A stretch of DNA of 64,000 nt from an uncultured Methylophaga sp. (GTDB lineage: Bacteria; Pseudomonadota; Gammaproteobacteria; Nitrosococcales; Methylophagaceae): contig NZ_CAMYKO010000005.1 of assembly GCF_947259025.1 (NCBI RefSeq), positions 372,001-436,000 on the forward strand, in the 5' to 3' direction. Under the pieces are notes generated by a model. The model searched no databases, was not told where the DNA came from, and saw only the letters and a list, made by a program, of their open reading frames with translations. Shown here piece by piece: positions 16,158-29,416 of the stretch; position 1 is the stretch's first letter, and each line of letters opens with the position of its first letter. Position numbers and translations under genes: made by a program.

Positions 16158-16511
16158 ATGGCTATGAACCCACGCAAAGGCATTCTGTCTTTAAAAATTA
16201 CCGACCAGAATATGCTCTATCACTCCTACATGCCGTTTCTGAAAAATGGCGGTCTGTTTATTCCCACCAACAAGGGCTATCAGGTAGGGGAAGAAGTGTT
16301 CATTTTGCTGACCCTGATGGATGAGGCAGAAAAACTGCCCGTGGCCGGCAATATCGTCTGGATCACCCCGCGGGGCGCCCAGGGCAACCAGGCTGCCGGT
16401 ATCGGCGTTCATTTCAGCGATATCGACGGTGGTGCTTCGGTCGTTCGGGGTAAAATCGAAAACTATCTGGTGGACAAACTCAAGTCCGACAAAGCAACCT
16501 ACACCATGTAA
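16158..16511 (+). CDS. pilZ: PilZ-family type IV pilus protein
   Basis: PilZ is a small cytoplasmic protein needed for type IV pilus assembly through PilB and FimX partners in Xanthomonas and Pseudomonas. The 117-residue product contains the PilZ fold (ILSLKITDQNMLYHSYMPF, then GNIVWITPRG and GIGVHF). It lacks the RxxxR and DxSxxG c-di-GMP binding motifs, like other type IV pilus PilZ proteins. The gene follows holB by five bases, its standard place in Pseudomonas. No pilus structural genes are in the window. Confidence 0.9.
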   Translation: MAMNPRKGILSLKITDQNMLYHSYMPFLKNGGLFIPTNKGYQVGEEVFILLTLMDEAEKLPVAGNIVWITPRGAQGNQAAGIGVHFSDIDGGASVVRGKIENYLVDKLKSDKATYTM

Positions 16512-17311: not shown

Positions 17312-17943
17312 AATCAGTGAAATCGAGTCGCTTTAGCCAGTGGCTAGCCATCTGCCTGCTGGTTGTACTCAGTGCCTGCGGCAGTGGTGAGCCATCACAA
17401 CAACTCGCCCCCCTGGGGCAGGATGCGATTATTCTGGCTTTTGGTGACAGCCTGACCTACGGCACCGGTGCCAATCATCAAACCGAGAGTTATCCTGCAG
17501 TCCTGGCACAGCTCAGTGGTAAAACGGTGATCAATGCCGGCGTGCCGGGCGAAGTCAGTGGGGAAGGGCTATCACGACTGAAATCTTTGCTCAATGAGCA
17601 TCAGCCAGAGCTGGTGCTACTCTGCCACGGTGGCAATGACTTGCTGCGTAAACTGGACACCGATGTCCTTAAGGATAATTTGCGGCAGATGATTCACCTT
17701 ATCAGAGAGCAGGGCGCTCAAGTGGTGATGTTATCTGTACCCAAGCCCGGTGTTTTTCTGAAAGCCGCACCGCTGTATCAGGAACTGGCCTCGACACAAC
17801 AAGTTTTGCTGGATAATGAGACTATTACAGATATCGAGTCTCAGTCTTCACTCAAGTCAGACCCGATACACCCCAATGCAGAAGGCTACCGGCAGTTAGC
17901 GGAAAAGCTGCATCAGTTACTGGATAGGGTAGGCGCTTTTTAA
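17308..17943 (+). CDS. SGNH/GDSL-family lipoprotein esterase (TesA-like)
   Basis: SGNH hydrolases cleave esters or thioesters; TesA is the multifunctional periplasmic thioesterase, arylesterase and lysophospholipase. The 211-residue product has a signal peptide ending in the lipobox LSAC (residues 22-25), so it is probably a lipoprotein. Block I is FGDSLTYG, the oxyanion Asn is in GGND, and block V is DPIHPNAEGY with the Asp and His of the triad. The GTG start overlaps the TatD gene; a second GTG lies three codons later. It converges on the next gene with a 4-base overlap at the stops. Confidence 0.85.
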   Translation: MKSVKSSRFSQWLAICLLVVLSACGSGEPSQQLAPLGQDAIILAFGDSLTYGTGANHQTESYPAVLAQLSGKTVINAGVPGEVSGEGLSRLKSLLNEHQPELVLLCHGGNDLLRKLDTDVLKDNLRQMIHLIREQGAQVVMLSVPKPGVFLKAAPLYQELASTQQVLLDNETITDIESQSSLKSDPIHPNAEGYRQLAEKLHQLLDRVGAF

Positions 17944-18890
17944 ATGACGCCAGACTCGCCCGTGATTTGTTCACTGATATCGCTGCTGACAACAACCCGG
18001 TTTCGACCTTCAGCTTTGGCCTGATAGAGCGCCTCGTCAGCCTTTGCAACGACAGGTTCAATCGCCAGTTCGCTGCTGGGTGTCAGCACGTGTACACCAA
18101 TACTGGCTGTAATTGTCAGCTCCACACGACCTACCCTGACAGTTTGCTCAGCGACAGCCTGGCGAACTCTGTCAAACAAGATTCGGGCTTTCTCAGCATT
18201 TTCGATTTCAGTGATCAACATGAACTCTTCACCACCATAACGGGAGACGATGTCATAAGGTCGCAGCGTTTTACTTAAAGTATCGGCAAAATGCTGAAGC
18301 ACTCTATCGCCCGCCTGGTGACCATATTCATCGTTGACCTTCTTGAAAAAATCAATATCGATGAGCGCCAGCGCGATATTCTGATCACGGCGCATCATTC
18401 GTTCTACTTCCACCATAAAACTGGCCTGCCCGGCGCGGCGATTAAGCACACCGGTTAACTCATCATAATAAGCCAGTTTTTCCAGCACCCGGTTGGAGTA
18501 TTTGAGCTTCTCCTGAGTATCAATAATACGACGGGCGACGGCATATTTCGCACTGAGAAAATGACCATCGATGGGTTTAGTGATGTAATCATCCGCGCCA
18601 TAAGAAAGCGCTTCGATGATCTTCTGTTCTTGTTCGTAGGCTGAAATGATAATGACGTAAGGATGATAATCTTCTGTATGAGTCTCACGGAGCAATGTGG
18701 CGACTTCAACACCAGTAAGACCGGGCATATTCCAGTCGAGAAGAATAAAATCGGGTGGCGTGTCTGACTGGATTATGTCCAGTGCCTGATTACCGGTCTC
18801 GGCTTCGATAATCTCGCAGTCATGGGGTTTGAGAAGACCGCGCAGGGTAAGCCGGCTGGTTAGTTCGTCATCGGCGATCAACACTCTCAT
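17940..18890 (-). CDS. REC-GGDEF response regulator, probable diguanylate cyclase
   Basis: This protein is predicted to make cyclic di-GMP when phosphorylated. The 316-residue product has an N-terminal receiver domain (1-120) with acidic residues DDE at 7-9, phosphoacceptor Asp52 and Lys105. A GGDEF domain (about 145-305) follows with an intact GGEEF active site at 219-223. A product-inhibition I-site RxxD is present at 210-213, five residues before it. No DNA-binding domain is present. It is the last of three minus-strand genes with short gaps (18 and 5 bases), downstream of the HPt protein that could phosphorylate it. Confidence 0.93.
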   Translation of the reverse strand: MRVLIADDELTSRLTLRGLLKPHDCEIIEAETGNQALDIIQSDTPPDFILLDWNMPGLTGVEVATLLRETHTEDYHPYVIIISAYEQEQKIIEALSYGADDYITKPIDGHFLSAKYAVARRIIDTQEKLKYSNRVLEKLAYYDELTGVLNRRAGQASFMVEVERMMRRDQNIALALIDIDFFKKVNDEYGHQAGDRVLQHFADTLSKTLRPYDIVSRYGGEEFMLITEIENAEKARILFDRVRQAVAEQTVRVGRVELTITASIGVHVLTPSSELAIEPVVAKADEALYQAKAEGRNRVVVSSDISEQITGESGVI

Positions 18891-18908
18891 TGGCTTTGGG
18901 AGACTTGA

Positions 18909-20387
18909 TTATGGATGATTTGCATGGATAGCTGACCTTTTGTTTGTTGTGTTATGACTGTCGATGTATTGGTTGATAGCGACTTGTAGCTGTTTCAAAT
19001 CGCTTTCGAGTTGTTCGACAATCACGTACGCTTTTTCCATCTCATTTTCAGTTGCGGCCTGTTCCAGCAAGCGCGCCTGTTCAACAATGGCATTAGCGCC
19101 TATCGCCGAAGCACTGCCTTTTAACTTGTGCGCAAGTAGTCTTATTCTATCACAGGCGTGAAGCGCAATCTCCTCATCAACCTGATGGATAAGACCGGGC
19201 GTTTGTTGTTGAAACATGTCGAGCATCTGCAAGAACAGATCATTATCTCCTTGCAAGCGAAACAGCGAGGCTTCCTTATCCCAGAATTGGGTGGTGCTCG
19301 GTGCCCAAGCTCTGTTTTCCAGCACAGCATACTCGCCGGTCTGCTGGGGCGTTTTGTCTGCCTGGCTATGATATGGCTTTTTGCTCATTGCTTTGCGCCA
19401 CAGCAACAGCATCACGACAATAAATAAGAGGGTGACAGCAACCAGCAATACAGCATAGAGACGATAGGGCGGAGTGCTTGACTTGATCACAGACTTGGCC
19501 GCCACCCAATTGAATACCAGTTTTCGCTCCCGGTTGAGCACATCACCGCCGGGTAGACTGAGCGTGGTTTTTGCCAGGATAAAGTCATCCTCAGCCACGC
19601 CGACACTAGAAGAGGTCTCGCTCTCTTCCTCGCCACCAGTTCTGTTGGCGGGATTATTTTTCGCCGATGTCAGCACGGGAGTAACCTGGTCACCCTGTAA
19701 ATTTTTGATAAACCATTGCTGGCCGGGCTGCAGGCTCTGGCTGACCGAACTGAGCAGCATCTCAGCATTGAAGCTGATGAAAATAACGCCCAGAACTGCA
19801 TTACCATCAAAGACCGGTGCCGCAACCCGGTAAACAAGAGAGTCTGTCTGAGGCTGAATTTCCAAGTTGGAAATATAGGTTTCGTTCCGGTTGAGCGTCG
19901 TCACCTGATGGGCAAGCTGCATGAGGTCATTGGCCGGTAACTGCTTCAAAGGCGTAGTCTTGAAGTTTGCCTCAGTCTGATGTCGATTAATGTGAAACAG
20001 ATCCTGTTTATTTTCAGTTATTACCAGCATGCCCAGCATTTCGGCAGCCGGGTGCTGTTTGAGATAGGAGATCATCAGGTCCGCCAATTGCTGTTTTTGT
20101 CTGGCGCTGGTGCTGTTCACATTCCCGTCAATGATTGCATTATAGCTACTGGCCACGGCCGGCAGATCACGTAAAAAAAGTACATCGCTGCGATGAGCTG
20201 AGAATGTTTGCTGCCATCGCAGTTTTTGTTGCAGTGCCATGCTGGCTAGACTCTGTCTGGCATGATCGAACTGCCATTTTTCGAAACCCCGGTCGATAAA
20301 ATAACTCGTTCCAGACACAGCCATGATAAGACAAACAGATGCTAACAACAGCGCTTTTCGTGCTGTGCCAGTGTTGAGGAAAAACAC
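18909..20387 (-). CDS. Membrane sensor with periplasmic Cache-like domain and C-terminal HPt domain
   Basis: This 492-residue protein has two membrane segments (about 11-27 and 311-330). They enclose a periplasmic domain of some 280 residues that looks Cache-like (VYRVAAPVFDGNAVLGVIF). A cytoplasmic HPt domain (about 368-475) carries the phosphorylatable His420 in LLAHKLKGSA. No kinase core (H-box, ATP-binding) or receiver domain is present, so it cannot autophosphorylate. It may relay or buffer phosphate between a hybrid kinase and the neighbouring receiver proteins, with transfer affected by an external ligand. The start is GTG, five bases after the stop of the gene before it, with weak TAAGG directly adjacent, suggesting coupled translation. 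Confidence 0.85.
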   Translation of the reverse strand: MFFLNTGTARKALLLASVCLIMAVSGTSYFIDRGFEKWQFDHARQSLASMALQQKLRWQQTFSAHRSDVLFLRDLPAVASSYNAIIDGNVNSTSARQKQQLADLMISYLKQHPAAEMLGMLVITENKQDLFHINRHQTEANFKTTPLKQLPANDLMQLAHQVTTLNRNETYISNLEIQPQTDSLVYRVAAPVFDGNAVLGVIFISFNAEMLLSSVSQSLQPGQQWFIKNLQGDQVTPVLTSAKNNPANRTGGEEESETSSSVGVAEDDFILAKTTLSLPGGDVLNRERKLVFNWVAAKSVIKSSTPPYRLYAVLLVAVTLLFIVVMLLLWRKAMSKKPYHSQADKTPQQTGEYAVLENRAWAPSTTQFWDKEASLFRLQGDNDLFLQMLDMFQQQTPGLIHQVDEEIALHACDRIRLLAHKLKGSASAIGANAIVEQARLLEQAATENEMEKAYVIVEQLESDLKQLQVAINQYIDSHNTTNKRSAIHANHP

Positions 20388-20392
20388 CTTAC

Positions 20393-22876
20393 TCAGGCCT
20401 TTTTATCTGACTTGAGCTGAGATTGAAGAAACTCAGAGAATTGAGTGGCATTGAGAGGGCGTGAATACAGATAGCCCTGACCGCATACGCAGCCCAGTTT
20501 GAGTAGCTCATCACGGTGTTGACTGGACTCCACCCCTTCGGCAATTAACTCAAGCTGCATCGAATTGCCCAGATTGATGATGGTCTTAACGATTTCATAG
20601 TCGCGTTGATTTTTGAGCATACCGCGCACGTAAGACATATCCAGCTTGAGCTTATCAACATCAAGCCGACGCAGATAGGTCAGGTTAGAGTAGCCTTTAC
20701 CAAAGTCATCAATCGACAGTTTAACGCCCATTTCCTTGAGTTCTTTGAACTTGTGCAGCGTCTCTTCAAAGTTGCGGATAAAAGCAGTCTCAGTCACTTC
20801 CAGCTCCAGCATGCCGGCATCCAGACCTGTCACTGAGAGGGTATCCCGAACCATAGCAACCAGGTCATCATTAAGACATTGCACGGCGGAAATATTGACC
20901 GAAACAGGCACCCTGTAGCCCGCCTGCAACCATTGCTGACACTGCTGGCAGGCCTCATGCATCACAATCGCACCCAGCTTCACGATAAGGCCGGTTTCCT
21001 CGGCAATTGGAATGAATTCAGCCGGTGACACCAATTTGCCACTAAAGTCGCGGATGCGAACCAGCGCTTCAGCGCCGATGGTAATGCTGGACGCCAGGTT
21101 GACCTTAGGCTGGTAATGCACTTCCACCATCTTGCGATCATCGAGGCACTGGCGCAGCAACTCCTCAGTCGAGCGCCTTTGCATCAGGGTGCGTTCCAGT
21201 TCTTCGGTAAAGATACGATAGCGGTCACCGCCTTCAAACTTAGCCCGGTACAAGGCCGCGTCAGCCTGCTGCATGATAGTATCCGGATCGCTGCAGCGTT
21301 GATCGATCATGCTGACACCGATACTGACGGACAGGCTGTATTTCTCCTTGCCTACGGTCAGCGGTGCTCTTAATAAGTCCAGTAGCAGGTGCAGATCATT
21401 TTCCAGTTTCTGCTGATTGTGCTCACCACGGAATAAAACCATAAATTCATCGGCGCCCAGACGGCCGATGCTGTTGTCCGGCTCATAATTCTCGAACAGC
21501 CTTCTGGCCATCACTCTGAGTACATCATCACCGGTACCGTTACCGTGGGCGTCATTGAAGAATTTAAAATTATCGACATCAATCACCGCCATCGCCATCG
21601 TCACGTTGTTGACCTTGACGGCTTCACAGGCGAGTTGCAGCTTCTCACGGATAAACAAACGGTTGGCGACACTGGTGAGCTGGTCGTAACTGGATGCCTG
21701 GTTGCGTAGCAGACTGAGACTGACGCTGTGACTGATATCGTGAATGACTGCTACCGCGCCGTTCATCTTGCCATCATGACTGCGGAGTGGGGCAGCTGTC
21801 TGCTCTATCTGGGTTAATCGGCCGTCCTTTGCCACCAGCTGGGTGTTGAGAGGCATGGATGTCACGCGTTGCTGACGCAGGGCAACCCGGATTGGATTTT
21901 CTGTATTGATTTTGGTTTCAGGGTCACGTAACTGCACCACCTGCTCAATCGGCAGGTTCAGTGCCTCTGATTGCCGCCAGCCGGTGATAAGCTCGGCTTT
22001 GGCATTAATAAAGGTCACCAGTCCCTGGTTATTGGTTGCCATCACGCCCTCGGCGACTGAGCCAAGAATGATGTTAAGGAAATCTCTCTGCTCCTGCAGA
22101 TTATGCTCAATTTGTTTTTGCTCGCTGATATCGGTCAAGGTCAGCAAAAAACCATTGTCATAGCCCTGATAGGCGGTTTCAGACCAGTTGATAATAAAAC
22201 TGCGCATATTACCCAGGCCGACTTCAAAGCTTGAGGTGGTTTGATACAGCCCCTGGCTGTCAGGTTGGGCCTGCTGCATCAGCGCGATAATATTGGCAGG
22301 GAAAATCAGTGATAGGTGCTGGCCCAACAATTCCAGCGGGCTAAAGCCAAACCAGCCAGCTTTTTCATCATTGCAGAACAGGTTGTGCCAGTCTTTGTCC
22401 CAGTAAGAAATAAAATTCGGCACCTGTGCCACCAGGTGCATGACTTCCTGACGGGCATTGAACAGCTTCTTACTTTGCTGCTGGATCGTCAGCAGATTGT
22501 TAACGCGCAGCTCGCAGGCTTTATGGTCGATGGGTTTGGCAATAAAGTCGACGGCGCCCTGACTCAAGGAGGCAATCTCATTGTCGATGCTGCTGTGGGC
22601 GGTGACAAAAATAATAGCGATATCACGGGTAGCCGGATTATCACGAATACGTTGGCAGACTTCCAGGCCATTAATGCCGGGCATTTCAATGTCCAGCAGA
22701 ATTAAGTCCGGTTTTAAATGTTCAAGCTGTGCCAGCGCGGCCTCGCCGCTATCTGCCGTGTGTACATCCCCCAGTTTGCTGAGCAATGCTTTGAGCTCCA
22801 ACTGAGTGGAGGGCTCATCATCGACAAGTAAGATTTTTACCGGGCTGGCTGTCAGGTCGCAATCCATCGTAAACAT
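20393..22876 (-). CDS. REC-PAS-PAS-GGDEF-EAL cyclic di-GMP signalling protein
   Basis: The 827-residue cytoplasmic protein has a receiver domain (14-130, phosphoacceptor Asp62), two PAS-like regions (about 145-260 and 265-385), a GGDEF domain (about 395-560) and an EAL domain (about 575-815). The cyclase signature is altered to GADEF (474-478), so cyclase activity is doubtful. The EAL domain looks competent: EALVR (603-607), an Asn in VNISAVQ, ELEVTE, DDFGKGYS and Lys in KLDMSYV. The most likely output is phosphodiesterase activity controlled by phosphorylation. The start is supported by AAGGGAG six bases upstream. It is the first gene of a likely three-gene operon. Confidence 0.92.
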   Translation of the reverse strand: MFTMDCDLTASPVKILLVDDEPSTQLELKALLSKLGDVHTADSGEAALAQLEHLKPDLILLDIEMPGINGLEVCQRIRDNPATRDIAIIFVTAHSSIDNEIASLSQGAVDFIAKPIDHKACELRVNNLLTIQQQSKKLFNARQEVMHLVAQVPNFISYWDKDWHNLFCNDEKAGWFGFSPLELLGQHLSLIFPANIIALMQQAQPDSQGLYQTTSSFEVGLGNMRSFIINWSETAYQGYDNGFLLTLTDISEQKQIEHNLQEQRDFLNIILGSVAEGVMATNNQGLVTFINAKAELITGWRQSEALNLPIEQVVQLRDPETKINTENPIRVALRQQRVTSMPLNTQLVAKDGRLTQIEQTAAPLRSHDGKMNGAVAVIHDISHSVSLSLLRNQASSYDQLTSVANRLFIREKLQLACEAVKVNNVTMAMAVIDVDNFKFFNDAHGNGTGDDVLRVMARRLFENYEPDNSIGRLGADEFMVLFRGEHNQQKLENDLHLLLDLLRAPLTVGKEKYSLSVSIGVSMIDQRCSDPDTIMQQADAALYRAKFEGGDRYRIFTEELERTLMQRRSTEELLRQCLDDRKMVEVHYQPKVNLASSITIGAEALVRIRDFSGKLVSPAEFIPIAEETGLIVKLGAIVMHEACQQCQQWLQAGYRVPVSVNISAVQCLNDDLVAMVRDTLSVTGLDAGMLELEVTETAFIRNFEETLHKFKELKEMGVKLSIDDFGKGYSNLTYLRRLDVDKLKLDMSYVRGMLKNQRDYEIVKTIINLGNSMQLELIAEGVESSQHRDELLKLGCVCGQGYLYSRPLNATQFSEFLQSQLKSDKKA

Positions 22877-23022
22877 GCAGTCTCCCTTGTGCCTGTCATT
22901 CCGTTATTAAGGCACACAGCCATTCAAGCACATTGAGACTTTAAATTCAGCAAAAATTTAATAATCGGAACTCTACTGCCCTTCACTAGTTCCTATATCA
23001 GTGTTTGACTAAAGATAAAATC

Positions 23023-23397
23023 ATGAAATTCAGTGTGTTGATAACTTTTTGCTTTTTGTGCGGATTCGCCGGCGCTGGCGTTCATGGCGAGGACTTCCTG
23101 CCTGACTTATCGACCGACTGTTATCAGGAGTGGCAGTCGCGTGGCTGGGTGATAGGCGAAGACAACACGCCTGCGCATGAGGTGCCGCGCTTTGCTCAAG
23201 GCATCAAAAAAATGTGTGAGACACGGGCTGACATGCATAGCGAGAATGCAGACATCTCACCCTACATTCAGGGCCGACTCGCTGAGCTTGCTCCCTATCT
23301 TTTTGCCGGCGATAAAGCGGCGATGCGGAGTGTAATTATAAAACTACAACAGCGGCGCCCGGGGCCGGACTTCTCCGGCGCATTTATGCGGGACTGA
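23023..23397 (+). CDS. Small secreted protein of unknown function
   Basis: I do not recognise the family. The 124-residue product has a clear signal peptide (MKFSVLITFCFLCGFAGAG, cleavage near residue 23-25). The mature part is about 100 residues, with two cysteines (in DCYQEW and KMCETR) that could form one disulfide. The ATG at 23023 is chosen because it begins the signal peptide; an in-frame TTG lies 18 bases upstream. It is divergent from the REC-PAS-GGDEF-EAL gene and convergent with the hybrid kinase, overlapping the kinase by 14 bases at the 3' ends. A periplasmic partner for one of the two sensors is a guess. Confidence 0.65.
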   Translation: MKFSVLITFCFLCGFAGAGVHGEDFLPDLSTDCYQEWQSRGWVIGEDNTPAHEVPRFAQGIKKMCETRADMHSENADISPYIQGRLAELAPYLFAGDKAAMRSVIIKLQQRRPGPDFSGAFMRD

Positions 23398-25468
23398 CTG
23401 TCAGCGATTTAAGTCTGGCGGCCAGGTCGTCAATAGCAATGGGCTTGGCCATGTAATCATTCATGCCGGCTTCGATACAGATATCCTTATATCGAATACT
23501 GGCATTGGCTGTCAGCGCGATAATCCAGGGTGACTGTAAACTGCTTTTTGCCTGCTGACGGATTTGCTTGGTGGCTTCGATGCCATCCATTACCGGCATT
23601 TCCCAGTCCATGAATATCAGATCATAGTGCTGCTGTTGCTGTTTCTCGACAGCCTCCAGACCATTTTCGGCCGTGTCACTTTTAAGCCCCAGTTTTTCCA
23701 GCATCATCACCATCATGGTGACATTCATCGGCAAATCATCGACCACCAGAATTTTCAACTCGGCTTTATCCGGCAGGGGCTGAAGTTGGGCCTCAATAGT
23801 CTCATCCGGCATGTCAGTCAGCAGTAGTGGCAGATGCAGGGTAAATTCACTGCCCTGGTTTCTGGCACTGACCACACTAATATCGCCGTCCATTAACTGT
23901 GCCAGGTTTTTGGAGATCGCCAACCCTAAACCACTGCCGCCATATTTGCGCGTGGTACTGCTATCGGCCTGAGTGAAACGCTGGAACAACTGACTCTGTT
24001 CAGTCAGGCTGAGACCGATGCCGTTATCTTTGACAGAAATAAACAATTGCTGGCTACCACCGTGATCATCAGCACTGGCTGATAACTGAATTTTTCCACC
24101 CGCCTCTGTAAATTTGATTGCATTGCTCAGCAGGTTGAGCAGTATCTGTTTACAGCGCACCTCATCAGTGTGGATCACACTACCTTGTAACGAGGGTGCC
24201 AGTGTCAGTTGTAACTGATGATTTTGCCTCTGGGCCTGGGGCGTCATGATTTCCAGGCACTGCTCGAGCATGTTTTCCAGCCTCACCGGTCGATATTCGA
24301 GATCGATTTTGCCCGCCGCAATTCTGGAAAAGTCCAGAATGTCACCAATCACGGCAGAGAGCTGGCCGGCACCAGCCTCAATACCGGAGACCAGTTTATT
24401 TTGCTGCTCATTCAGTTCGGTATTGCGCAACAGGCTGCTCAAACCAACAACGCTGTTCAACGGAGAGCGGATTTCATGACTCATACTGGCCAGAAAGGCA
24501 TCTTTGGCAGCTTCACTCTCTGCAGCACGCCGGTTGCGAGACAGTAAAATCTCGGCATAGACCGCGGCCAGCGTCAAAGCCAGCCCCATCAGCGCGATAA
24601 TAATGAGACTGGTCAGGGGGAAGGCTTGTTTATGCTCGACAGCAAGCAGCCATTGCCCGGCATCAAATACAACAGCCTGTACTTGTGGCGTTTCATTAAA
24701 TATCTGTGGATCGCCCCAGAACACCTCACCCTCGGCACCCAGTCCATGACGCCCCTTAAGCGCATAGCGAAATTTATCAGAGCTTGCCTGTTCAAGACCG
24801 GCATGACTGAGGATGGCATCCGTAGTAAACAAAACCGTGGCCAGCCCCCAGAAGTTGTCAGGGAGCAGTGACGGATCTTCATAAATGAGCTGTTGCTGCA
24901 GCCGCACAGCACTGGCATTGGGAGAATGACCGGCGAACACGGCTTTACGGGCGATAATGGCCTCGCCACCCTGAACCAGACCGATGGGGCCGGTGATGAC
25001 TTGATGGTACTGATAAATGGCGCGGATGATCTGCTGTTTACGGCTGTCATCTTCAAATAAATCATAGCCCAGCGCTTTGTCATTACCATTGCCGGTGAGA
25101 TAGCGAATGATGCCCTGCGGAGCCAGTTGCATGCTCAGAATGCCGTCAACCGACTGGTGCAATTGGCTGGAGAACTGATCAAAATGTTGCTGAAACTGCT
25201 GCTCCTGTTGCTTATCTTTGAGATCCAGCTCTGCATAACTGCTGACAAACGCATCCAACGCATCCAGTGTGAACAGGCGTTCATCCAGGGCACTCTGTAA
25301 AGCAGCAGTGGTTTTTTTCAGCTCATCATCAGCACTTTGTTCACGCTGCGCTTCAATGCTCTTGTATTGCAGCAGCATAAGAACACCAGTCATCAAACTG
25401 CCAAATAGCAGAATGACCAGTGGCAGTCGTAATTTTTCAAACTGGCTGAACAGGTTTCGCAAAATCAA
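23384..25468 (-). CDS. CHASE-domain hybrid histidine kinase
   Basis: The 694-residue protein senses an external signal and starts a phosphorelay. It has a membrane segment (about 14-34), a periplasmic CHASE-type domain (about 55-280) and a second membrane segment (about 285-310). The kinase core has His331 in FLASMSHEIRSPLNS and an ATPase domain with NLLSNAIKF, DNGIGL and GSGLGLAI. A C-terminal receiver domain carries Asp621 in FMDWEMP. There is no HPt domain, so a separate HPt protein is needed; one is encoded 3 kb away. The start is TTG at 25468, six bases after the stop of the outer-membrane protein gene; another in-frame TTG lies six bases further in. Confidence 0.93.
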   Translation of the reverse strand: MILRNLFSQFEKLRLPLVILLFGSLMTGVLMLLQYKSIEAQREQSADDELKKTTAALQSALDERLFTLDALDAFVSSYAELDLKDKQQEQQFQQHFDQFSSQLHQSVDGILSMQLAPQGIIRYLTGNGNDKALGYDLFEDDSRKQQIIRAIYQYHQVITGPIGLVQGGEAIIARKAVFAGHSPNASAVRLQQQLIYEDPSLLPDNFWGLATVLFTTDAILSHAGLEQASSDKFRYALKGRHGLGAEGEVFWGDPQIFNETPQVQAVVFDAGQWLLAVEHKQAFPLTSLIIIALMGLALTLAAVYAEILLSRNRRAAESEAAKDAFLASMSHEIRSPLNSVVGLSSLLRNTELNEQQNKLVSGIEAGAGQLSAVIGDILDFSRIAAGKIDLEYRPVRLENMLEQCLEIMTPQAQRQNHQLQLTLAPSLQGSVIHTDEVRCKQILLNLLSNAIKFTEAGGKIQLSASADDHGGSQQLFISVKDNGIGLSLTEQSQLFQRFTQADSSTTRKYGGSGLGLAISKNLAQLMDGDISVVSARNQGSEFTLHLPLLLTDMPDETIEAQLQPLPDKAELKILVVDDLPMNVTMMVMMLEKLGLKSDTAENGLEAVEKQQQQHYDLIFMDWEMPVMDGIEATKQIRQQAKSSLQSPWIIALTANASIRYKDICIEAGMNDYMAKPIAIDDLAARLKSLTVSPA

Positions 25469-27528: not shown

Positions 27529-29202
27529 TTAACTTATCTGCCGCCAGTTCAATTGCCCCTCATGGCTTTGATACCACTCAATAAACTTTTCTCGTTCTAC
27601 CGGCCTGGAAATAAAATAGCCCTGCGCAATATCACAGTCTATCTGATTGAGGAAGCGCATAATACGATAGGTTTCGACGCCTTCTGCCACGGTTTTCATC
27701 TGCATCTTATGCGCCAGGCTGACCGCCGCCTGCAGAATATGGACCGCATCCTGATCATCGGGTAGTCGGCGGACGAAAGATTGATCCAGCTTGAGATGAG
27801 AAATGGGGAGTTTGTGCAAATATTGCAGTGAGGAGTAGCCGGTACCAAAATCATCAACGGTAATGGTCACGCCAGCCGCTGCCAGTCTTTGCAGTTCCCC
27901 TGCCGTGTGGTTGATATCACGTACCAGGGCGCTCTCGGTCACTTCCAGTTCCAGATAATCGCCCCGCAAACCATGCTCTGCCAGCATGGCAAAAATCGTC
28001 TCGGCGAAATCAGGCTGGCAGAGGTTGTGGGCGGATATGTTCACGGCAACCGGAATCGGCATGTCCTGAGACTGGAAAAAGCGGGCGGTTTGCATGGCTT
28101 CATCAAGCGCAAAACGGGTCAGCACATTAATCAAAGTGCTCTGTTCCGCACAGGGAATGAAAGTCCCGGGCGGAATATTACCACGCTGTGGATGATGCCA
28201 GCGCATCAGTGCTTCAACTGACAAGACGCGGCCGCTGTGAAGATCCAGGGTGGGCTGATAATGCATGGTTAACTGCTGTTGTTCCAGAGCTTTCATCAAC
28301 TCGGCCAACAGCGACATATTATCGCGGGTCGCCATTTTCAATGATGGCTGGTACTCGAGAAGATCCAGAAGCCTGTCATGAGCAGCATTGAGTGCAGACT
28401 CAGCCTGCTGAAGATAACTGGCGGGCTCTTCATCAACCTCACGAAACTGAACATAGCCGATGCGTGAGTCGACATGAATGGGAATGCCCTTAAACAGATA
28501 AGGATGACGTACTGACGATTTAAGGGCTTCCATCAGCTTCAGGGTTTTGTCAGCTTTGGCAGCAATAAGCGCGCTGATTTCCACGGTATCGGCACGGTAG
28601 ATTTTTGCCTGCCTGCTGAAAACCTGGTCAATCCGCTCGGCGCATTGTGCAATAACTGCTTCTATTACATCGTGACCAAATGCGGCTTTGAGCTCGGTGG
28701 CACTCTGCAAAGACAGCACCATCAGAACTCTATCTTCGGGAACTGTCTGGTGCTGAATCTGGGTCAAATCATCCATCAGCGCCATACGGTTGGGTAGCCG
28801 GGTGCTGATATCATGACGAAATACCCAGTACAGGTGACGAATATATGACTGGACGGTGTCACTGGCAATGCCGCTTAAGGCTCCAATCAGCACAAAAAAA
28901 CCGGCGCGGTATAGCCAGTTGATAGTGAGCTGCATTTCACCGCTTACCGTGCTGATCGGCATATATGGCCCCAGAACCAGACTGCCGAGCAGTGCAATCA
29001 GGACACCGCCGCGGGTGCCATAGAGCATGCCGGCCAGGACAATAGGCACATACATCGAATGAGAATAAACGTATTTGATTCCGCCGGTCAGGTAGACAAT
29101 AACACCGACGCCCAGCACCATCAGCAACAGAGACGGGATAGCAATGATATTGAGTGTATGATGATGGCGGTTAAACCATTTAAAAATGCCGATAATGTCC
29201 AT
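27529..29202 (-). CDS. Membrane EAL-domain phosphodiesterase with degenerate GGDEF domain
   Basis: The 557-residue protein (from the ATG at 29202) has three or four membrane segments in the first 120 residues. A GGDEF-like domain follows in which the signature is lost (YRADTVEIS in its place). The EAL domain has EALMRW, VNISAHN, ELEVTES, VDDFGTGYSS and KLDQSFV, so it should hydrolyse cyclic di-GMP. The frame extends 36 residues further upstream. The ATG is preferred because the hydrophobic region follows it closely and GGGAGTGAG lies 9-17 bases before it. It is divergent from cysJ. Confidence 0.88.
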   Translation of the reverse strand: MDIIGIFKWFNRHHHTLNIIAIPSLLLMVLGVGVIVYLTGGIKYVYSHSMYVPIVLAGMLYGTRGGVLIALLGSLVLGPYMPISTVSGEMQLTINWLYRAGFFVLIGALSGIASDTVQSYIRHLYWVFRHDISTRLPNRMALMDDLTQIQHQTVPEDRVLMVLSLQSATELKAAFGHDVIEAVIAQCAERIDQVFSRQAKIYRADTVEISALIAAKADKTLKLMEALKSSVRHPYLFKGIPIHVDSRIGYVQFREVDEEPASYLQQAESALNAAHDRLLDLLEYQPSLKMATRDNMSLLAELMKALEQQQLTMHYQPTLDLHSGRVLSVEALMRWHHPQRGNIPPGTFIPCAEQSTLINVLTRFALDEAMQTARFFQSQDMPIPVAVNISAHNLCQPDFAETIFAMLAEHGLRGDYLELEVTESALVRDINHTAGELQRLAAAGVTITVDDFGTGYSSLQYLHKLPISHLKLDQSFVRRLPDDQDAVHILQAAVSLAHKMQMKTVAEGVETYRIMRFLNQIDCDIAQGYFISRPVEREKFIEWYQSHEGQLNWRQIS

Positions 29203-29416
29203 TTGGTACAACTCACTCCCTGTTGACCCTGTGCCGGTAACCATTGCCTGAACGGTAAAGCAACTGTTCAATAGTACAACACGGTTGGCAATTGTGACAT
29301 CGCCAAGCATTGCATATTTATTTTTAATATAAACAAACTCTTAATATATATTTTATATCTATATGTAAATTTGCTATTTTGGATATATTGATTAAAAACA
29401 GAAAGATAAGCCATTA

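Follow-up and report, generated by a model that had tools for sequence, protein, structure and literature searches.

A membrane phosphotransfer protein in Methylophaga that probably descends from a hybrid kinase

Background

To our knowledge, the origin of histidine phosphotransfer (HPt) proteins that lack a kinase has been argued from few cases. We studied such a protein from an uncultured Methylophaga species. It is encoded in a window of 64,000 nucleotides (the whole stretch of DNA that was analysed, positions 372,001 to 436,000 of contig NZ_CAMYKO010000005.1), which belongs to a genome of 2.7 Mb in 8 contigs. At its syntenic locus, several states occur within one genus: a kinase with a separate HPt protein, a fused kinase, a sensor-transmembrane (TM)-HPt protein, a free HPt protein and no cassette. 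Such variety allows tests of how RcsD-like membrane phosphotransfer proteins arose. The locus is also a natural example where the probable ancestor, its kinase still intact, can be seen at the equivalent position in sister species.

Comparison with described systems

The account of described systems draws on published papers (PMC12785465, PMC8199921, PMC5651002, PMC10191623, PMC5085249, PMC4558063, PMC9981736, PMC7418988). RcsD resides in the inner membrane, carries a large periplasmic domain and a C-terminal HPt domain, and does not autophosphorylate. In the RcsC-RcsD-RcsB relay of enterobacteria, the receiver of the hybrid kinase donates phosphate to RcsD, which hands it on to a response regulator. 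IgaA controls the relay through contact with RcsD. The domain organization of RcsD suggests that it and RcsC arose by duplication from a common ancestor.

The window protein resembles RcsD in that it has a periplasmic domain, TM segments and a C-terminal HPt, but no active kinase, and in that it has a likely partner, a hybrid kinase without HPt. However, RcsD of E. coli K-12 (890 amino acids) has an HATPase-like region and RcsD_ABL before its HPt, whereas the window protein has only a short linker. Their targets would also differ: RcsB in the Rcs relay, but enzymes of cyclic di-GMP metabolism in the window. A BLASTP comparison of the window protein with E. coli K-12 RcsD gave an E-value of 3.3, with the top stretch in the HPt. 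The NCBIfam RcsD model NF007907, which recognises E. coli RcsD at 1568 bits, was not among the six matches of the window protein at E-values up to 0.1. Given these results, the window protein seems to be an RcsD-like protein of separate origin, stripped down further than RcsD itself. When an alignment containing the window protein was compared as a profile with RcsD, the match was confined to the kinase part of its relatives; since the matched columns are missing from the window protein, this comparison says nothing about it.

HptB of P. aeruginosa takes phosphate from PA1611, ErcS' or SagS. Like the window HPt, it lies outside any kinase; it is fed by orphan hybrid kinases, as the window HPt may be, in a pathway linked to a diguanylate cyclase. 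In contrast to the membrane-tethered window HPt, HptB is small (115 residues in structure 7c1i) and soluble. Moreover, its target HsbR is a kinase/phosphatase, whereas the window HPt adjoins receiver (REC)-headed cyclic di-GMP enzymes.

In the case of Y. pestis RcsD-Hpt, as we propose for our locus, loss of an upstream part leaves a working HPt protein, and the authors suggest an ongoing process that generates orphan HPts. There, however, a frameshift yields an HPt protein of 103 amino acids beside the full-length RcsD, whereas the internal deletion that we propose for the window would keep the sensor and the TM segments.

By position, sensor and HPt, the window protein has a counterpart in the kinase that M. 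thiooxydans encodes at this locus (L031, L065). This counterpart differs in having PAS, HisKA, HATPase and REC domains, and its sensor passes the PF21623 cut-off.

The cassette and its membrane HPt protein

Domains were called with Pfam and TM segments by hydropathy; comparisons are within 24 genomes of the same genus unless stated. All four open reading frames (ORFs) named in the original prediction are present, and their domains and the residues His420, Asp52, Asp62 and Asp621 are as it had claimed (ORF list, Pfam). They lie in the following region.

17940..18890, reverse strand: REC-GGDEF diguanylate cyclase (Pfam REC 7e-25, GGDEF 3e-44), with Asp52 and GGEEF at residue 219
18909..20387, reverse strand: membrane HPt protein of 492 amino acids, comprising TM1, a periplasmic part that is probably what remains of a dCache-type sensor, TM2, a short linker and HPt
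18984..19229, reverse strand: HPt domain, residues 387-468 (Pfam HPt 7e-13), with the His420 codon at 19128-19130
19473..20285, reverse strand: periplasmic domain, residues 35-305, Cache-like and fast-evolving, with residues 225-293 modelled at low confidence
20393..22876, reverse strand: REC-PAS-GGDEF-EAL protein, with Asp62, a degenerate GADEF at residue 474 and an EAL motif at residue 603
23005..23397, forward strand: small ORF, family unassigned by Pfam, between the CHASE kinase and the three-gene run
23384..25468, reverse strand: CHASE-HisKA-HATPase-REC hybrid kinase without HPt, with His331 and Asp621; presumed phosphate source

The HPt domain (PF01627) of the membrane protein scores 49.1 bits against a cut-off of 24.6. 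Its phosphoacceptor His420 lies within HKLKGSASAIG, and the HKLKGSASAIGA core is intact, in a frame of 492 open codons. The HPt region has blocks with predicted local distance difference test (pLDDT) values above 90 in an AlphaFold model, and the top-ranked HPt in Foldseek was P. aeruginosa HptB (7c1i, TMt 0.86). We detected no HisKA, HATPase or other kinase domain in the protein with Pfam at E-values up to 1.

Two hydrophobic segments, starting near residue 12 and at residues 305-317, bracket a periplasm-sized region, and weaker hydropathy peaks at residues 188-198 fall inside this predicted periplasmic part. TM2 ends near residue 330 and the HPt starts at residue 387; Pfam reports no HAMP domain between them. 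As the original prediction held, the protein thus has two TM segments with the HPt as its sole signalling domain, and the neighbouring hybrid kinase (Pfam CHASE, HisKA, HATPase and REC) has a receiver and lacks an HPt. In the periplasmic region, a dCache_1 match is sub-threshold (E-value 0.0021, 18.1 bits versus a cut-off of 45). PF21623 is not among the Pfam matches of the window protein, but is above cut-off in the corresponding sensors of three relatives (G002, G005 and G008, introduced below).

Probable descent from a full hybrid kinase

Our preferred explanation, to which we give a probability of about two in three, is that the membrane HPt protein descends from an unorthodox hybrid kinase by an in-frame internal deletion, and now acts as a membrane-tethered phosphotransfer adaptor in a relay headed by the CHASE kinase. 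Descent from a full hybrid kinase, which appears to be the case from comparison with relatives, is a point that the original prediction had missed.

We surveyed the locus across the genus using a TatD-like gene as anchor, which is present in 21 of the 24 genomes. The labels TatD, TesA, HolB, CbiX and Tsx were read from sequence, Tsx also having a sub-threshold Pfam match, and PilZ was called by Pfam. In M. thiooxydans DMS010 (G002) and the metagenome-assembled genome (MAG) BWSM_61 of Methylophaga (G005), a hybrid kinase of 1182 and 1176 amino acids, respectively, is encoded between REC-PAS-GGDEF-EAL and REC-GGDEF. By Pfam, both kinases consist of a PF21623/dCache-like sensor, PAS, HisKA, HATPase, REC and HPt. 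Both loci also hold the CHASE kinase; the locus of G005 is spread over three contigs.

The window protein matches the kinases of G002 and G005 in the sensor (E-values 9e-12 and 5e-19) and in the HPt (44 and 46% identity). Its open frame of 497 amino acids is roughly 680 amino acids shorter than theirs. Most of the alignment gap is between TM2 and HPt, with a few stray residues inside the gap. This size difference probably reflects a deletion in the window lineage. An ancestor with the architecture dCache-type sensor-TM-PAS-HisKA-HATPase-REC-HPt would have lost PAS, the kinase core and REC (about 680 amino acids) in frame, while keeping its sensor shell, its two TM segments and its HPt. The periplasmic domain might now serve chiefly as an anchor, or have been re-purposed for docking, instead of being the original ligand sensor.

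The phylogeny is consistent with this order of events. A species tree of seven neighbouring proteins, midpoint-rooted and covering 20 of the 24 genomes (G001, G010, G015 and G019 were omitted), places G002 first, then G005, then the window genome with G003 and G013, at supports of 0.95 and 0.82. Because G002 and G005 branch just outside the clade of the window genome, the fused kinase form is likely ancestral here. A tree of 84 HPt sequences, which omits several weaker loci and loci repeating genomes already included, groups the window HPt with those of G002 and G005 at a support of 0.79, and ten HPts of the locus at 0.73. This tree agrees, at modest support, with the fused form coming first. 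The fused form therefore probably preceded that of the window, as far as these trees indicate.

Other relatives exhibit further arrangements. In G007 (a Methylophaga MAG) and G022, whose genomes are near-identical, the CHASE kinase, a free HPt and REC-GGDEF are encoded side by side. The CHASE kinase of G022 is split over two frames (L034, 5451-7585), and the copy in G007 is intact; since the TatD-like gene of G022 is likewise shortened, a sequencing error could account for the split. In G008, a dCache-type kinase, a free HPt and REC-GGDEF are encoded as separate neighbours, some 4 kb away from TesA. The adjacency of HPt and REC-GGDEF is thus kept while the kinase varies: CHASE only (G007, G022), dCache-type only (G008) or both (G002, G005). 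In G004, also a Methylophaga MAG, we found a REC-HPt piece at a contig end, as well as REC-GGDEF.

A free HPt alone occupies the locus in M. sulfidovorans (G012), M. aminisulfidivorans (G014) and G023. The three Methylophaga genomes with a free HPt only (loci L036, L037 and L054) gave no match anywhere to the CHASE kinase at E-values up to 1e-90 or to REC-GGDEF at E-values up to 1e-60. We detected no HPt of the locus at E-values up to 1e-4 in 10 genomes, one of them that of the close relative G013; some of these carry another kinase there. The locus of G003 is unreadable, as its contig ends just after TesA. Among the loci examined, the sensor-TM-HPt form occurs in the window alone.

At first we read the free HPts of G007, G022, G012, G014 and G023 as independent losses of a kinase, but dropped this reading. 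G008 has a kinase and an HPt that are separate and adjacent, so an ancestral free HPt is equally possible, and we do not claim independent losses.

Predicted phosphate route

The window genome has nine HPt matches at E-values up to 0.01. Eight of them lie in frames that also have an HATPase domain, and the ninth is the window protein. Four open frames of this genome have HATPase and REC but no HPt, and the three of these outside the window were confirmed by Pfam. Given a sole kinase-less HPt and several HPt-less hybrid kinases, the window HPt can act for the CHASE kinase and perhaps for further kinases.

Within the genus, counterparts of the CHASE kinase are found in 5 of 24 genomes (E-values up to 1e-90), of REC-GGDEF in 7 (up to 1e-60) and of REC-PAS-GGDEF-EAL in 3 (up to 1e-150). 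One of the seven REC-GGDEF copies, that of G003 (40% identity), is located elsewhere, beside another kinase. Each of the five genomes that have the CHASE kinase also has the HPt of the locus and REC-GGDEF. The split relay of the original prediction gains support as an inference from this co-occurrence, from the side-by-side genes of G007 and G022, from the adjacency of HPt and REC-GGDEF under changing kinases and from the window HPt being the only one of nine outside a kinase.

In the most likely route, each transfer step of which we infer, the CHASE kinase would autophosphorylate on His331 and pass the phosphate to its own Asp621. The phosphate would then move to His420 of the membrane HPt protein, and from there to the receivers of the cyclase (Asp52) and the EAL protein (Asp62). 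Features meant to tell intermediate from terminal receivers, judged by eye, did not discriminate here.

The cyclase has GGEEF, and five residues upstream of it an RxxD motif of the inhibition-site type. The REC-PAS-GGDEF-EAL protein, with its degenerate GADEF and its EAL motif, is predicted to be mainly a phosphodiesterase. Given these motifs, it is plausible that the two targets have opposite outputs.

At another locus, L064 (G000:C5:816500-823500), a CHASE8-HAMP-HisKA-HATPase-REC-HPt kinase adjoins a REC-PAS-GGDEF-EAL gene of the same genome. This arrangement is an unsplit form of a similar circuit.

Weighing the alternatives

Several observations count against the explanation by internal deletion and CHASE-kinase input. 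The genes at 20393-22876, 18909-20387 and 17940-18890 form a run with spacings of 5 and 18 bp, but the opposite-strand ORF at 23005-23397 separates the CHASE kinase from it, so this kinase probably lies outside the operon of the other three genes. The three other HPt-less hybrid kinases (frames of 803, 906 and 889 amino acids) could use the window HPt, in place of the CHASE kinase or alongside it. The window sensor is only 22-23% identical to the sensors of the full kinases, and the REC-GGDEF of G008 is 33-37% identical to that of the window. In G013, the nearest relative whose locus can be read, the entire cassette is missing from that place, as would also be expected under progressive loss. 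Finally, we found the stripped architecture in the window copy alone, so conservation of this form cannot be claimed.

A possible but doubtful alternative is that the HPt mainly serves the other three HPt-less hybrid kinases, as an HptB-like hub to which the CHASE kinase is one input. The four HPt-less frames that combine HATPase and REC, together with one HPt outside any kinase, suit this idea, and the several inputs of HptB provide a precedent. By contrast, the CHASE kinase is the only one that neighbours the HPt gene, and it co-occurs with the HPt and REC-GGDEF as described above. A hub and descent by internal deletion are not exclusive.

The original prediction had proposed that the Cache-like periplasmic domain gates the HPt step, i.e. 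that it still senses a ligand and provides a second input to the relay. The divergence of this domain makes such gating rather unlikely. Its identity is 23.5% between the window and G002 and 22.9% between the window and G005, versus 47.7% between G002 and G005. In TM2, the window is 26 and 18.5% identical to G002 and G005, versus 62% between those two; in the HPt, the corresponding values in this three-genome comparison are 42 and 44% versus 55%. REC-GGDEF, by contrast, is 60, 65 and 63% identical (window-G002, window-G005, G002-G005) and the CHASE domain is 62, 60 and 61% identical. In the other genes compared, identities are about even among the three genomes, or the window is nearest G005.

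Three-taxon branch lengths point in the same direction. The window branch is 1.71 in the sensor (versus 0.51 and 0.34 for G002 and G005), 1.96 in TM2 (versus 0.15 and 0.26) and 1.47 in the HPt (versus 0.45 and 0.46), although these figures are rough for TM2 and HPt, which supply few sites. In nine other segments the window branch is 0.09-0.46, with at most a mild excess, as in the REC of the CHASE kinase (0.40 versus 0.22 and 0.25) and the Tsx-like protein (0.33 versus 0.18 and 0.20). The periplasmic domain has diverged several-fold faster than its neighbours.

Sequence motifs have been lost as well. The sensor of G005 matches Protein Data Bank (PDB) entries 2p7j and 3lid (E-value 3e-9) and shares REYF and R..G.L.YP..P with 2p7j. 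Both motifs, which presumably play a role in ligand binding, are absent from the window sensor. A PDB profile search with an alignment of the window protein and its relatives was dominated by kinase domains, and was uninformative on the sensor. The lack of a Pfam HAMP between TM2 and HPt also argues against gating.

Some observations favor a sensor that still functions. TM1 and TM2 are retained, and the frame is open despite its fast evolution. When we neutrally evolved the G005 sensor to 80, 70, 60 and 50% amino-acid identity (1000 runs each), 4.4, 1.2, 0.5 and 0.1% of runs, respectively, were free of stops, so survival of the sensor frame by chance is unlikely. The AlphaFold model, built on a 7-sequence alignment (mean pLDDT 69.6), keeps a distal half that may be Cache-like: in blocks of ten residues, the membrane-distal periplasmic part has pLDDT values of 59-90, and Foldseek matched dCache sensors with a best E-value of about 1e-5, at query TM-scores of only 0.16-0.27 among the 50 matches listed. 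However, residues 225-293, in the membrane-proximal half of the domain, and the linker at 336-366 fall below 50. RcsD establishes that control through the periplasmic domain of a membrane HPt protein is possible. The original prediction had overlooked this precedent. In the window protein, a gating role of the periplasmic domain is weakly supported.

A bolder variant appears improbable to us. In it, a single in-frame loss of the whole catalytic part would have turned a hybrid kinase into a transmembrane HPt that stands alone. Its periplasmic domain, having evolved anew, would control the phosphate flow from a foreign kinase to the cyclase and the phosphodiesterase. If true, this would be a sensor with no trace of a kinase left, acting at the phosphotransfer step and nowhere else.

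It is very unlikely that this lineage is in the course of losing the cassette and that its HPt protein is a largely functionless leftover: absence of the cassette from the locus of the close relative G013, the missing kinase core and fast evolution in sensor, TM2 and HPt alike would fit decay, but the phosphoacceptor and core are intact over the full open frame, the neutral simulation speaks against a sensor frame open by chance, tight gene spacing is kept, and the CHASE kinase, cyclase and EAL gene are accelerated little or not at all (the kinase REC, given above, being the largest case).

Searches for the same layout

The original prediction had called for a search for the Cache-TM-HPt layout beside REC-GGDEF genes in other genomes. 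We found none in the sampled genomes. A protein-only contig scan with the window HPt protein gave 18 stretches with the pattern, none of which was confirmed. An alignment-based contig scan with one peptide pattern (AHKLKGSA) gave 70 loci, in which the kinase core was recognised by a home-made hidden Markov model and TM segments by hydropathy, with some ORFs cut by contig ends. Among the HPt ORFs of these loci, none has a TM segment and lacks a kinase core except L102, whose hydrophobic stretch falls inside the HPt.

In 369 genomes of the gammaproteobacterial class, a search with the whole protein led us to fetch 20 frames (about 160-680 amino acids, some outside that range). Eighteen of these have an HPt, and none of the 18 has a TM segment. 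From a PF01627 search of 140 genomes we fetched six of the shorter frames among the matches listed, and again none has a TM segment. Four of these six run off a contig end, and CheY-like ORFs lie near all six, so we took them to be pieces of CheA. The sensor-TM-HPt layout thus looks rare in the sampled genomes. In open PMC literature, the titles and abstract beginnings among the matches listed included none describing the locus or the layout.

Neighbouring genes

The small ORF at 23005-23397 (forward strand) has a hydrophobic N-terminal stretch by eye and overlaps the 3' end of the opposite-strand CHASE kinase gene. Pfam gave no match for it. G002 and G005 have it at the corresponding position, as does G013, whose locus lacks the signalling cassette.

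A second cyclic di-GMP protein is encoded nearby at 27529-29310 (reverse strand). It is GGDEF-EAL by Pfam, and its N-terminus is hydrophobic by eye. A copy with 62% identity is located near the empty locus of G013. On the other side of the cyclic di-GMP cassette, at 16158-16508 (forward strand), is a gene for a PilZ-domain protein, which has 79-98% identity in the loci of the genus where it was matched.

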